The notes beneath the pieces were generated by a model. It saw only the letters and a program-made list of their open reading frames with translations, had not been told where the DNA came from and searched no databases. A stretch of DNA of 64,000 bases from Halobacterium sp. CBA1132 (GTDB lineage: Archaea; Halobacteriota; Halobacteria; Halobacteriales; Halobacteriaceae). Positions within the stretch are counted from its first letter, which is position 1. Each line of letters starts with the position of its first letter. Positions 10,612-59,528 of this stretch are shown in pieces. The position numbers were made by a program, and so were the translations under genes. The DNA is taken from NCBI RefSeq assembly GCF_001485535.1, contig NZ_BCMZ01000001.1:2170001-2234000 (forward strand). The letters are read 5' to 3'.

Positions 10612-10812
10612 GTGCAAGGTTCGTCAGCCGGTAGCCTGGCGGTCGCCGGGAGAGCTGCGCTCTCCCGAGACGCCGAAAATCGCTCTGCGATTTTCGGAAG
10701 AATCACCAAGGGCGACCGAGCGAGCGGCGCGAGGCGCTCCGCGCCTCGGAATGAGCGAACGGCGACTGGAAGGAGCCGCGAGCAGCGAGCGAGGGAGGGC
10801 TTGGTTTCGAAC
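10612..10812. repeat. Intergenic palindrome cluster between tsr3 and L40e
   Basis: The 275-bp gap after tsr3 holds several stem-loops rather than a gene: GGGAGAG/CTCTCCC at about 10648-10668, a long CGAAAATCG/CGATTTTCG hairpin at about 10672-10697, and a GCGAGGCGC/GCGCCTCG hairpin at about 10726-10748. No open frame here looks protein-like. The hairpin with the CGATTTTCG arm resembles the palindrome inserted in the GNAT gene at 11351-11372. The L40e promoter (GCTTAAAC near 10812) ends the region. Confidence 0.6.
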
Positions 10813-17764: not shown

Positions 17765-17930
17765 AACGGGCATCCGCGAGCGAGCGGTTCGTAGAACCCG
17801 AGCGACGCGGTTCACCGCGCGAACGCAGTGAGCGCGGGCCGAGGAACCCCCGGAGGGGGTGACGCTGGCTTTTTCCGCAAGTTTTTGCAAGCGAGCGGCC
17901 TGCGGCCGCGAGCGCAGCAAAAAGTGCGTC
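17765..17930 (-). repeat. Class A structured element, copy 1 (after the SWIM gene)
   Basis: Begins at the base after the SWIM gene's stop codon and reads in the same direction. On the minus strand: GCACTTTTTGC, a GC-rich hairpin, GCAAAAACTTGCGGAAAAAGC, a CCCCCTCC/GGGGG hairpin, a CGCGC/GCGCG hairpin whose 11-nt cap is GAACGCAGTGA on the plus strand (17821-17831), the GTGAAC motif and a final stem ending GATGC. TTTTTGC (plus-strand 17917-17923) pairs with GCAAAAA (17882-17888) outside the inner hairpin. Confidence 0.75.
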
Positions 17931-20994: not shown

Positions 20995-21198
20995 CGCGGA
21001 CGTGCTCACCCCCGCCCGCGGCCCGCCGCGTCGCTCGCCGTCGGCATCAACGGCGACACTCTTTCGCGGTGAGCGTTGTCGTTCGCTCACCGCTCGCTTG
21101 GCCCGAGAGACTTCGTCTCTCGCGGCTCACGGCTCACTGCGTTCGCCGTTCGCATTTCCGAGGGCGCAAAGCGCCCTCGCAACCGTCGGCCTTTTTTC
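20995..21198. repeat. Hairpin array after aceB ending in a T-run
   Basis: Stem-loops in order: GGTGAGCG/CGCTCACC near 21069-21091, CGAGAGA/TCTCTCG near 21103-21121, GGC-TCACTGCGTTC-GCC at 21131-21147 (minus-strand cap GAACGCAGTGA), and CGAGGGCGC/GCGCCCTCG near 21163-21183, followed by CCTTTTTTCC at about 21190-21199. The T-run after a strong hairpin could terminate the aceA-aceB transcript; it lies just before the trm1 gene. No coding sequence is supported. Confidence 0.6.
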
Positions 21199-26393: not shown

Positions 26394-26711
26394 CGCGACC
26401 ACCCCTTTCTGCGACCACGCTGACGCGGAGCCGCCGCTAACCGACGAAGCGCCGAAAGAAAATCGCGAGCAGTCAACAGGCGGTGCAGCGCGGAGCGGGA
26501 GCATTCGGCGGCCGTAGGCCGCCGATTCACCGCGCCGTCAGGCGCGGGCCCCGAGGACCCCCGAAGTGGGGTCCGACGGGGCTTTTTAGCGTAGCTTTTT
26601 CCCAACGAACGAGCGGCGCGAAGCGCCGCGAGTGAGTGCAGGAAAAAGGTACTACATCATTCCCGACTGAGCGGAGCTCCGTCGGCTGCTGTAAAATCGG
26701 CAGGGCCGATT
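26394..26711. other. Intergenic region between the Lrp gene and thermosome
   Basis: This 318-bp gap has no supportable gene. It is filled by a class A element (26496-26652, minus strand) and a 48-bp palindromic insert flanked by a duplicated thermosome 3' end (26653-26723). The first 100 bp hold only the 3' flank of the Lrp gene, with nothing recognisable. Confidence 0.7.
26496..26652 (-). repeat. Class A structured element, copy 2 (after thermosome)
   Basis: In thermosome-sense orientation: GTACCTTTTTCC, a CGGCGC/GCGCCG hairpin, GGGAAAAAGCTACGCTAAAAAGC, a GGACCCC/GGGGTCC hairpin, CCGCGCC/GGCGCGG, GTGAAT, a GGCGGCC/GGCCGCC hairpin, then AATGCTC. The outer stem is TTTTTCC with GGAAAAA (plus-strand 26596-26602 and 26641-26647), where most copies have TTTTTGC with GCAAAAA: both sides changed together. 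Confidence 0.75.
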
Positions 26712-26723
26712 TTACATCATCCC
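26653..26723. repeat. Duplicated thermosome 3' end around a palindromic insert
   Basis: TACATCATCCC at 26713-26723 (the end of the thermosome gene, reverse strand) recurs as TACATCATTCCC at 26653-26664. Between them lies a 48-bp segment with a perfect 11-bp hairpin, GTAAAATCGGC-AGG-GCCGATTTTAC, at 26691-26715, and a second palindrome CGGAGCTCCG at about 26672-26681. This looks like an insertion with duplicated target. Confidence 0.65.
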
Positions 26724-29210: not shown

Positions 29211-29342
29211 GCGAGCATACGCGCGGCGAAGCCGCGCGTTTCACCGCGGCGAGCGCAGCGAGTCGCGGGACGTTTTTAGCGTAGATTTTTACGACGAGTG
29301 GTGTGCGAGCGCAGCGAGCGCACCCGAGGAGTAAAAAGGTAC
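29211..29342 (-). repeat. Class A structured element, copy 3 (tRNA-Ser side)
   Basis: On the minus strand: GTACCTTTTTAC, a hairpin, GTAAAAATCTACGCTAAAAACG, a CGCGAC/GCCGCG hairpin, GTGAAA, a CGCGCGG/CCGCGCG hairpin, then TATGCTCG. The outer stem is TTTTTAC with GTAAAAA (plus-strand 29286-29292 and 29331-29337), a compensated change relative to the GC version. Two hairpins inside (loops at 29251-29261 and 29307-29317) carry the cap GAGCGCAGCGA. Confidence 0.75.
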
Positions 29343-29361: not shown

Positions 29362-29411
29362 CTGAGCGAACGCGGAGCGTTCGCGAGGGTCGGCGCGGCT
29401 TCGCCGCGCCG

Positions 29412-29467
29412 GGGTTTGAACCCGATGCCAGACCTCACTGTGTTCGGTCTGCCGTGGTTCAAATCCC
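29412..29467. repeat. Inverted repeat with T-arm-like ends
   Basis: GGGTTTGAACCC (29412-29423) and GGTTCAAATCCC (29456-29467) are oppositely oriented and both look like tRNA T-arms. Between them CAGACC (29429-29434) pairs with GGTCTG (29446-29451), with the 11-nt cap GAACACAGTGA on the minus strand. There is no acceptor or anticodon stem, so this is not a tRNA gene. Confidence 0.65.
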
Positions 29468-29538
29468 TCGCGTTCACTCGACGGAGACTCTCGCGGCGCG
29501 ACGAGACGCGCCGCTCGGAGTCGCTGCGTCACGAAAAA

Positions 29539-38485: not shown

Positions 38486-38705
38486 ACACGCACTTTTTGC
38501 TGTGGGAGCGGCCTGCGGCCGCTCCCTGGCAAAAACTTGCGGAAAAAGCACTCCTCGCTCCTGCCGGCAGAGCGGAGCTCTGCCGAGGTCACGTTCGCTT
38601 CACTCACGTGACTGCCGCTCACTTCGTTCGCGTTAGTCGGTCGTCGGCCTCGCGGCTGCGCCGCGAGTGAATCGCGCTCGCTTCGCTCGCGCGAATACTC
38701 GTTCA
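38486..38705 (+). repeat. Class A structured element, copy 4 (after the AstE-like gene)
   Basis: Sense-oriented and beginning right after the TAA. TTTTTGC (38494-38500) pairs with GCAAAAA (38529-38535) around a perfect 10-bp hairpin, GGGAGCGGCC-TGC-GGCCGCTCCC (38504-38526). GGAAAAAGCACTCC follows. Extra hairpins include GTCACGT/ACGTGAC and one capped by GAACGAAGTGA (minus, 38619-38629). Then CTCGCGGC/GCCGCGAG, GTGAAT, a hairpin capped GAGCGAAGCGA (minus, 38678-38688), and AATACTCG. This is the longest copy. Confidence 0.75.
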
Positions 38706-43464: not shown

Positions 43465-43611
43465 TTACCCGCCGTACGTCTCTTCGAGGTACTCCACGAT
43501 GTCAGGTCGCCCACCTTTTCCCGCTCGTCGCACACCGCGCTCCTCGCGGCAAAACCTGGACCAAAAAACGCCTTACCCGCCGTACGTCTCTTCGAGGTAC
43601 TCCACGATGTC
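43465..43611. repeat. 39-bp duplication of the glutaredoxin 3' end around a repeat core
   Basis: The 39 bp at 43573-43611 (the end of the glutaredoxin gene, stop codon included) recur exactly at 43465-43503. The 69 bp between (43504-43572) look like a class A core in plus orientation: CCACCTTTTCCC, a GC-rich middle, GGCAAAACCTGGACCAAAAAACGCC. The upstream copy is a dead fragment of the gene. Confidence 0.8.
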
Positions 43612-46778: not shown

Positions 46779-46932
46779 GAGCATCCGCGAGCGCCGCGAG
46801 GCGCGAGCGGTTCACCGCGCGAACGGAGTGAGCGCGGGCCGACGACCGACCGTAGGGAGGGAGGAGTGCTTTTAGTGCAGGTTTTGCCGAGCGAGGCGCG
46901 CGGAGCGCGCCTCGCGCAGCGCAAAAAGTGCG
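46779..46932 (-). repeat. Class A structured element, copy 5 (after carS)
   Basis: Begins right after the carS stop codon. On the minus strand: GCACTTTTTGC, a CGAGGCGCGC/GCGCGCCTCG hairpin, GGCAAAACCTGCACTAAAAGCACTCC, then CCCGCGC/GCGCGG around a hairpin whose plus-strand cap is GAACGGAGTGA (46821-46831), GTGAAC, a final stem and GATGCTCG. The outer stem is GCAAAAA (46921-46927) with TTTTGC (46882-46887). Confidence 0.75.
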
Positions 46933-58113: not shown

Positions 58114-59364
58114 ATGAGCGAGCAGGAGGGCGCACCGTCCGAGGACCGCCGAAAGTACGAGTTCCAGAAGGTCATCGAGGACCTCAAGGACTACACCGGG
58201 AGCGGCACCCAACTGGTGACCATCTACATCCCCCCGGACAAGCAGATTTCGGACGTCGTCGCCCACGTCACGCAGGAACACTCCGAAGCCTCCAACATCA
58301 AGTCAAAGCAGACCCGAACGAACGTCCAGGACGCACTCAAGTCCATCAAGGACCGACTGCGGTACTACGACACGTTCCCGCCGGACAACGGCCTCGTCGT
58401 CTTCTCCGGCGCCATCGACAGCGGCGGCGGCCGCACCGACATGGTGACAGAAGTGCTGGAGTCACCACCCCAGCCAATCGAGTCGTTCCGCTACCACTGC
58501 GACGACGCGTTCCTCACCGAACCCCTCGAAGAGATGCTCGGGGACAAGGGCCTCTACGGCCTCATCGTCCTCGACCGCCGCGAAGCCAACGTCGGCTGGC
58601 TGAAGGGCAAACGCATCGAGGCCGTCAAGTCCGCGTCCAGCCTCGTCCCCGGCAAACAGCGCAAAGGCGGACAGTCCGCACAGCGGTTCGCCCGCCTCCG
58701 ACTGGAAGCCATCGACAACTTCTACCAGGAGGTCGCCGGAATGGCCGACGACCTCTTCGTCCCGCGGCGCCACGAAATCGACGGCATCCTCGTCGGCGGC
58801 CCCTCCCCGACGAAAGACGAGTTCCTCGACGGCGACTACCTCCACCACGAGCTCCAAGACACGGTCCTCGGGAAGTTCGACGTCTCCTACACCGACGAGT
58901 CCGGCCTGAAGGAACTGGTCGACCGCGCGCAGGAAACGCTCGCGGAAGCCGACCTGATGGACGACAAGTCCGACATGGAGGAGTTCTTCAAAGAGCTCAA
59001 CGGCGGCGACCTCGCCACCTACGGCTTCGAACCCACGCGGAAGAACCTCGTCATGGGCTCCGTCGAGACACTGCTCATCTCCGAAGACCTCCGCAAGGAC
59101 GTCGTCACCTACGAGTGCCCCAACGGCCACGAAGAACGCGAACTCATCAGCCAGCGCGCCGACACCCCCGAACACACCTGCTCGGAGTGCGGCGAAGACG
59201 CCGAGAACGCCGAACGAGACGACGCCATCGACCACCTCATGGAGATTGCCGACCAGCGCGGCACCGACACCCACTTCATCTCCACCGACTTCGAGAAAGG
59301 CGAACAACTGCTCACCGCCTTCGGTGGGATTGCCGGGCTGCTGCGCTACGGCACGGGCGTGTAA
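58114..59364 (+). CDS. prf1: Peptide chain release factor aRF1
   Basis: 416 residues. NIKS (61-64) recognises stop codons and GGQ (185-187, in KQRKGGQSAQRFARLR) triggers peptide release. The C-terminal domain has a zinc-binding insert CPNGHEE...CSECG. One factor reads all three stop codons in archaea. Single gene with its own promoter, divergent from minD. A class A structured element begins straight after its TAA stop codon, so the mRNA would end with that structure. Confidence 0.97.
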   Translation: MSEQEGAPSEDRRKYEFQKVIEDLKDYTGSGTQLVTIYIPPDKQISDVVAHVTQEHSEASNIKSKQTRTNVQDALKSIKDRLRYYDTFPPDNGLVVFSGAIDSGGGRTDMVTEVLESPPQPIESFRYHCDDAFLTEPLEEMLGDKGLYGLIVLDRREANVGWLKGKRIEAVKSASSLVPGKQRKGGQSAQRFARLRLEAIDNFYQEVAGMADDLFVPRRHEIDGILVGGPSPTKDEFLDGDYLHHELQDTVLGKFDVSYTDESGLKELVDRAQETLAEADLMDDKSDMEEFFKELNGGDLATYGFEPTRKNLVMGSVETLLISEDLRKDVVTYECPNGHEERELISQRADTPEHTCSECGEDAENAERDDAIDHLMEIADQRGTDTHFISTDFEKGEQLLTAFGGIAGLLRYGTGV

Positions 59365-59528
59365 AAGCACTTTTTGCTGCGCGAGCGGCGCTACGCGCCG
59401 CTCGCTGGCAAAAACTTGCGGAAAAAGCACTCCTCGCTCCCTACGGTCGCTCGTCGGCCTCGCGGCTTCGCCGCGAGTGAACCGCTCGCCTCGGGTCTTT
59501 CAGACCGCTCGGCTCGCGGATGCTGTTC
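59365..59528 (+). repeat. Class A structured element, copy 6 (after aRF1)
   Basis: Sense-oriented, starting after the TAA. TTTTTGC (59371-59377) pairs with GCAAAAA (59408-59414) around a perfect 11-bp hairpin, GCGAGCGGCGC-TAC-GCGCCGCTCGC (59381-59405). Then CTTGCGGAAAAAGCACTCCTC, a weak hairpin, CTCGCGGC/GCCGCGAG, GTGAAC, a final stem and GGATGCTG. This is the clearest copy. Confidence 0.8.

Follow-up and report, generated by a model that had tools for sequence, protein, structure and literature searches.

The window analysed here, a stretch of 64 kb from the chromosome of Halobacterium sp. CBA1132 (2170001-2234000, G000:C1), carries six copies of a large folded sequence element and raises the question of what kind of element this is and what it might do at the places where it is found.

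Architecture of the element and its copies in the window

Inspection of the sequence recovered the six copies, and a short core at 43504, in the orientations given in a preliminary description of the window, with their parts in the order listed there and with the same variants of the first stem, namely TTTTTGC/GCAAAAA, TTTTTAC/GTAAAAA (the copy at 29211) and TTTTTCC/GGAAAAA (the copy at 26496). When read in the sense direction, a few nt after a stop codon, the element opens with an outer stem followed, after 1-2 nt, by a run of T4-T6, a GC, a perfect palindrome with a 3-nt loop, a second GC, a run of A4-A6 (A-run 1) and, 2 nt further on, the complement of the outer stem. Together these parts make up the first hairpin module, P1. 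After another 1-2 nt comes a second run of A4-A6 (A-run 2) and then the hairpins P2 and P3, the joint TGAA, the hairpin P4 and the sequence ATGCT, giving a length of roughly 130-220 bp or more.

The copy at 59365-59524 (+) is complete and lies 3' of a release-factor-like gene (eRF1 domains; stop TAA at 59362-59364). Its P1 (59367-59419) is closed by the outer stem GCA/TGC (59367-59369 with 59417-59419), inside which the T-run at 59371-59375 pairs with A-run 1 at 59410-59414 around an inner palindrome with a 3-nt loop. A-run 2 (59422-59426), read on the other strand as a second T-run immediately past P2, is followed by P2 (59427-59458; GC-ACTCCTC...TCGTCG-GC, with a conserved internal loop), P3 (59459-59477), a perfect hairpin CTCGCGG-CTTCG-CCGCGAG, the conserved joint TGAA (59478-59481) and finally P4 together with the conserved ATGCT after it (59482-59524). 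Full elements are also found at 17765-17930 (-), with the T-run 7 nt past the stop (TAA) of a 112-aa ORF; at 26496-26652 (-), 3' of a thermosome (Cpn60_TCP1) gene and with the outer stem GTA/TAC; at 38486-38705 (+), 3' of an AstE/AspA-family gene and with one more hairpin block nested inside P2; and at 46779-46932 (-), directly 3' of a CarS-like (CDP-archaeol synthase) gene. The element at 29211-29342 (-) has no P2; no stop codon immediately precedes it, and a tRNA gene lies ~200 nt upstream. The core at 43504-43572 (+) consists of P1 only and is situated between convergent genes, its double T-run on the minus strand lying 4 nt past the glutaredoxin stop.

Other features were noticed around some of these sites. 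Between 43465 and 43611 direct repeats of ~39 bp lie on both sides of the P1 core and consist of the 3' end of the glutaredoxin gene that converges on it, and elsewhere on the chromosome (G000:C1:274750-274905) a duplicated arrangement of this kind was seen, in which three gene ends alternate with two P1. Both thermosome paralogs share a stretch of ~60 nt between stop codon and element (26690-26716 in the window and G000:C1:2482510-2482570), consisting of a hairpin with TTTT followed by a repetition of the gene-end letters, ATGATGTA, which suggests exchange between the paralogs. Between the tRNA gene and the element at 29211, at 29391-29500, there are T-arm-like tRNA fragments (GGTTCAAACCCC, ATTTGAACC) together with palindromes.

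In Halobacterium and its relatives 151 distinct copies were compared, and their outer stem was found as GCA/TGC (66 copies), CCA/TGG (31), GTA/TAC (24), CGA/TCG (7) and GGA/TCC (3). The lengths of the T-run, A-run 1 and A-run 2 co-vary, being 5,5,5 in 107 and 4,4,4 in 27 of the 151, A-run 2 thus equalling the other runs in length yet being left unpaired by P1. A complete parse through P4 was obtained for 93 copies; the joint between P3 and P4 is present in all of them (TGAA, GGAA, TGAT and GGAT being allowed) and ATGCT follows on the 3' side of P4 in 71. In some copies additional palindromic blocks recur within P1, P2 or P4. Closure of the entire element by a long-range helix, AGCA(C)TCC/GGATGCT, was considered and rejected, as copies with other P2 ends do not compensate; for A-run 2, a triple helix or an A-run switch was considered. 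Hairpin loops in the coding DNA of the window are of mixed sizes while those of the elements, and of most other intergenic DNA, are of 3 nt. Palindromes without P1, most of them with loops of 3 nt, also cluster at 10640-10750 and 21066-21180, possibly representing another class listed in the preliminary description or decayed elements.

Copy number, position at gene ends and turnover

A covariance model (R1) built on P1 was used to search the 3.01 Mb home genome and gave matches at 40 places at E<0.001 and at 48 distinct places at E<=1, all 48 of them chromosomal (2.59 Mb), the three other contigs, 425 kb in sum, giving no match. The pairing-independent pattern GCAAAA-N6..9-AAAAGC had 33 matches in the same genome, all chromosomal, against 0 for the reversed control pattern. 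Taken together these numbers indicate a real family, beyond chance, and one of only ~40-50 copies in the genome rather than the hundreds that had been predicted; with 6 copies in 64 kb against ~1 expected, the window holds ~6 times the average density.

Covariance searches revealed further copies both in the home genome and in other haloarchaea. Matches at E<=0.1 were found in 33 of 40 relatives and, class-wide, at E<=0.001 in 97 of 145 haloarchaeal genomes and 42 of 58 genera. When the phylum sample was searched with the model, all of the matches listed were haloarchaeal and none came from other archaea, and exact matches to a strict pattern were in records that are all Halobacterium. No match was found in the phage records searched, three weak matches appeared in haloarchaeal plasmid records, and a loose pattern scan of viral contigs gave, among the matches listed, generic T5...A5 inverted repeats. 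The copies of other haloarchaeal families retain P1, the ACTCCTC...GTCGGCC of P2, P3 and GTGAA, and some also retain ATGC. A scan of the window against Rfam gave no family above the gathering threshold for the element, a tRNA being the sole match, and the earlier remark that no named haloarchaeal family has this layout stands for Rfam and for the open-access literature searched. We regard the family as an undescribed folded module of haloarchaeal gene ends, with T-run terminators, REPs and PATEs/SMRs as the nearest named elements.

In 136 of the 151 distinct copies the T-run is preceded, at a distance of 3-12 nt, by the end of a stop triplet (3-13% in neighbouring 10-nt windows); this tie to gene 3' ends was absent from the preliminary description. 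In the home genome a confidently coding sense ORF ends 4-9 nt upstream of the T-run in 29 of the 48 copies. Some copies are located directly downstream of tRNA genes (tRNA-Leu in the home genome, tRNA-Gly and tRNA-Gln in relatives), which indicates that the link is to transcription and not to translation. Two copies sit ~65 nt downstream of thermosome genes, and for the P1-only cores in convergent-gene gaps the reverse-strand double T-run is found 4-8 nt past the stop of the other gene. Window genes without the element likewise carry T4-T5 after their stops, and the window has 54 T-runs in 11.7 kb of intergenic DNA vs 32 in 52 kb of coding DNA. In the relatives G014 and G020 (L065, L382 and L383) P1-type elements are arranged in tandem with intervening DNA, and at L065 every P1 is preceded by a copy of the tRNA-Gly 3' end.

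Nearly all copies are in sense orientation to the upstream gene, their sense-strand folds are stable and the outer stem covaries, as would suit a sense-strand RNA element of the 3' UTR with a role in shielding mRNAs from 3' exonucleases or in binding a protein. Such a fold would, however, open with a T-run that is likely to stop transcription, the copies that follow tRNA genes do not agree with it, and the sense strand folds worse than the antisense strand, tandem U·C mismatches being unfavourable on a sense RNA; this explanation is very unlikely.

At three orthologous gene ends compared in 13 Halobacterium genomes, the element was found in 10 (one remnant included), 4 and 7 of the 13. In each case the filled sites belong to a group of close relatives and the site is empty in the remaining genomes; the hairpin sequences differ between the orthologous copies. 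One Halobacterium genome has zero copies. The clade-limited sites and the differing hairpins indicate that sites are acquired, or lost, in the course of time and are then retained, with turnover of the hairpin sequence.

A patchwork of occupied and empty sites among Halobacterium clades would also be left by a non-autonomous mobile element (REP/PATE/MITE type) that inserts beside stop codons and whose antisense single-stranded DNA hairpins serve an HUH/Y1 transposase. Such an origin would fit with nested sub-modules recurring in different hairpins, with the tandem G·A pairs and GNA triloops (PMC4686876) described below and with the PATEs and SMRs known from a haloarchaeon (PMC3119063). It agrees poorly with the distribution of the Y1 transposase (PF01797), which is missing from six Halobacterium genomes that have 17-48 matches to the element, four of these genomes being 99% complete, and is found in the one Halobacterium species that lacks the element; across 13 Halobacterium genomes no correlation between element and Y1 was seen. 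Moreover, the 425 kb of non-chromosomal contigs have zero copies, the orthologous filled sites are all in close relatives, no clean target duplication was seen at the sites compared, and insertion alone would give a looser spacing past the stop; mobility is a quite unlikely explanation. Filled and empty orthologous sites do exist, with boundaries that are not clean and no short target duplication. At G000:C1:1855992-1856354 an IS200-type (Y1) transposase adjoins copy 3 of the element, where the end of a sense gene was not found.

Covariation and the folding strand

In the outer stem 93% of the cells are Watson-Crick pairs compared with 67% when permuted (maximum 74%; n=151). An alignment of 109 hits, which leans towards structure as it was fitted to the model, had 94.3% of its cells paired vs 78.7 when shuffled, and contained 239 double-sided changes vs 72 shuffled and at most 52 slid, a number not reached in any of 500 shuffles. 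The double-sided changes and the five outer-stem types confirm the compensating base changes reported earlier. The covariation is beyond chance; that selection on base pairing explains it, as was proposed there, is not established, since homogenisation of the arms also fits.

An RNA under pairing selection, on either strand, would be expected to contain more G·U than was found here, where, out of 1923 cells, 8 are G·T (G·U) pairs of the sense strand and 20 are A·C pairs, equal to G·U on the antisense strand. Six pairs of modules are identical but for an inverted loop, another 29 same-arm pairs differ in other ways than loop inversion, and where the loop has changed between equal arms, T..C (antisense G..A) is mostly retained. 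Arm homogenisation and spacer inversion through template switching have been documented elsewhere (PMC8604942). The near absence of G·U, the replacement of whole hairpins between orthologs and the loop inversions also fit with homogenisation of inverted-repeat arms at the DNA level, which may lie behind part of the covariation. Simple gene conversion between copies was rejected as the main source of variation, the P1 hairpin being unique in 89 of the 93 parsed copies; in the comparison of hairpin identities, short GC-rich palindromes align well even when shuffled.

If homogenisation were the whole explanation only the T-runs would matter, and the hairpins would be passive palindromes kept perfect by template switching, their covariation a mutational product. 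This would account for the few G·U intermediates, the ortholog hairpins replaced whole, the perfect arms, the 3-nt spacers and the six inverted-spacer pairs, and both processes are known (PMC8604942). It is nevertheless unlikely: TGAA, ATGCT, the ACTCCTC/TCGTCG loop and the length of A-run 2 are conserved though unpaired on the sense strand, loops and tandem mismatches show a strong strand bias, T..C is mostly retained where loops have changed between equal arms, and the architecture is common to several haloarchaeal families.

The strand that folds best is the antisense one, opposite to the strand listed in the preliminary description. Among 311 distinct modules the flanked tandem mismatches read GA/GA in the antisense direction, where the sense strand has TC/TC, in 182 cases vs 4. 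Stems of at least 5 bp have 3-nt loops in 194 of 249 cases, 181 of these 194 with C-G closure, and GNA triloops number 125 on the antisense and 29 on the sense strand. The antisense fold is the more stable one in 56 of 60 copies with RNA parameters and in 58 of 60 with DNA parameters. The P2 loop ACTCCTC/TCGTCG is unpaired on the sense strand, and as read from the sequence its antisense counterpart allows two G·A pairs in tandem, with one nucleotide bulged; a kink-turn at this place was rejected, the tandem G·A being present but the bulge being only 1 nt. The bias of loops and mismatches together with the stability makes the antisense strand the better candidate for the functional fold.

Antisense transcripts that form a family of small RNAs, with their ends at the T-runs, would make use of the better folder and of its terminal T-runs. 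With no promoter element identified, hairpin sequences that are unconserved between copies and orthologs, and orthologous sites that are often empty, such a family is extremely unlikely.

Tandem G·A is typical of stable single-stranded DNA folds. GNA triloops on at least two G-C pairs are extraordinarily stable DNA mini-hairpins (PMC4686876), and the C-G-closed triloops, being ultra-stable hairpins of this kind, suggest that the selected molecule may be DNA. A tentative and somewhat doubtful extension would be a class-wide haloarchaeal element in which antisense DNA, with its GNA mini-hairpins and tandem sheared G·A, is the folded and selected molecule and the stems are continually rewritten and re-perfected by template switching, the structure being inherited and the sequence not; if true, this would be a natural case of strong covariation arising from mutation plus selection.

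A candidate bidirectional terminator and its relation to known systems

Transcription termination in haloarchaea is thought to depend on T-runs. The explanation we favour, and to which we give about an even chance, is that the element is a gene-end transcription terminator of haloarchaea, working in both directions by different means. For the upstream gene the run of T4-T6, 4-9 nt past the stop codon (or tRNA 3' end), would release the polymerase and leave almost no 3' UTR. For opposing transcription the antisense RNA would form P4, P3 and P2, with P2 abutting a T-run and a second T-run after it, in the manner of a hairpin plus U-tract; these reverse T-runs would be A-run 2 and A-run 1 read backwards. 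In the antisense strand of the parsed copies P2 is indeed directly followed by a T-run (the complement of A-run 2), and such a reading of this strand fits both its better folding and the length match of A-run 2. In favour of the explanation are also the positions past stop codons and tRNA genes, the co-varying run lengths, the T-runs that follow other genes of the window and the strand bias, together with work in Haloferax volcanii, where 95% of transcripts were terminated in vivo by T5C, a motif of the same kind, and 59% by a hairpin site (PMC7237163). In the P1-only cores between convergent genes one hairpin could serve both. The perfect stems with changing letters would result from inverted-repeat arms that were probably copied from each other during DNA synthesis, and selection would retain the T-runs, the TGAA and ATGCT signatures and the formation of stems.

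Several points speak against this explanation. The numbers of G·U on both strands (above) are below expectation for an RNA fold, and the C-G-closed triloops (PMC4686876) mean that the molecule under selection may be DNA. Many copies separate genes arranged in tandem, for which a source of opposing transcription is hard to see. A first T-run acting at 95% would, moreover, leave P2-P4 hardly needed by the sense gene.

If the terminator explanation holds, a large, modular and structured terminator family present across most haloarchaeal genera would be a new type of element. It would explain many intergenic GC palindromes, improve the annotation of 3' ends and provide terminator parts for haloarchaeal genetics. 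The strand-asymmetric folds and the replacement of stems without wobble intermediates offer a test case for functional covariation versus arm homogenisation.

When compared with known systems, the element resembles REP/BIME/REPIN sequences with RAYT transposases (PMC3733652, PMC3116915) in being made of dispersed intergenic palindromes, tens per genome, but is larger, has stems of variable sequence, lacks an association with Y1 and is tied to stop codons. A REP is a palindrome of 20-40 bp with a GTAG or CGTC tag at one end (PMC3733652); this end tag was sought in the element and not found, the joints being TGAA and ATGCT. With the PATEs, MITEs and SMRs of Haloquadratum (PMC3119063) it shares a haloarchaeal host, small size, non-coding palindromic sequence and nested palindromic blocks. 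PATEs have retained terminal palindromes of the IS605 type, and full-length identity exceeds 90% among some of them (PMC3119063), whereas the hairpins of the element vary from copy to copy and a parent transposon was not found. On its antisense strand the GC-rich P2 abuts a T-run as in the bacterial hairpin-plus-U-tract intrinsic terminator, a likeness of geometry only, and unlike that terminator the element has three hairpins, two T-runs and an archaeal host. Closest in position are the archaeal oligo-U terminators, such as T5C of Haloferax volcanii (PMC7237163): like these, the element has an oligo-T, here a run of T4-T6, soon past a coding region or RNA gene, but its T-run sits in a conserved multi-hairpin module with mirrored T-runs on the opposite strand and with fixed TGAA and ATGCT.
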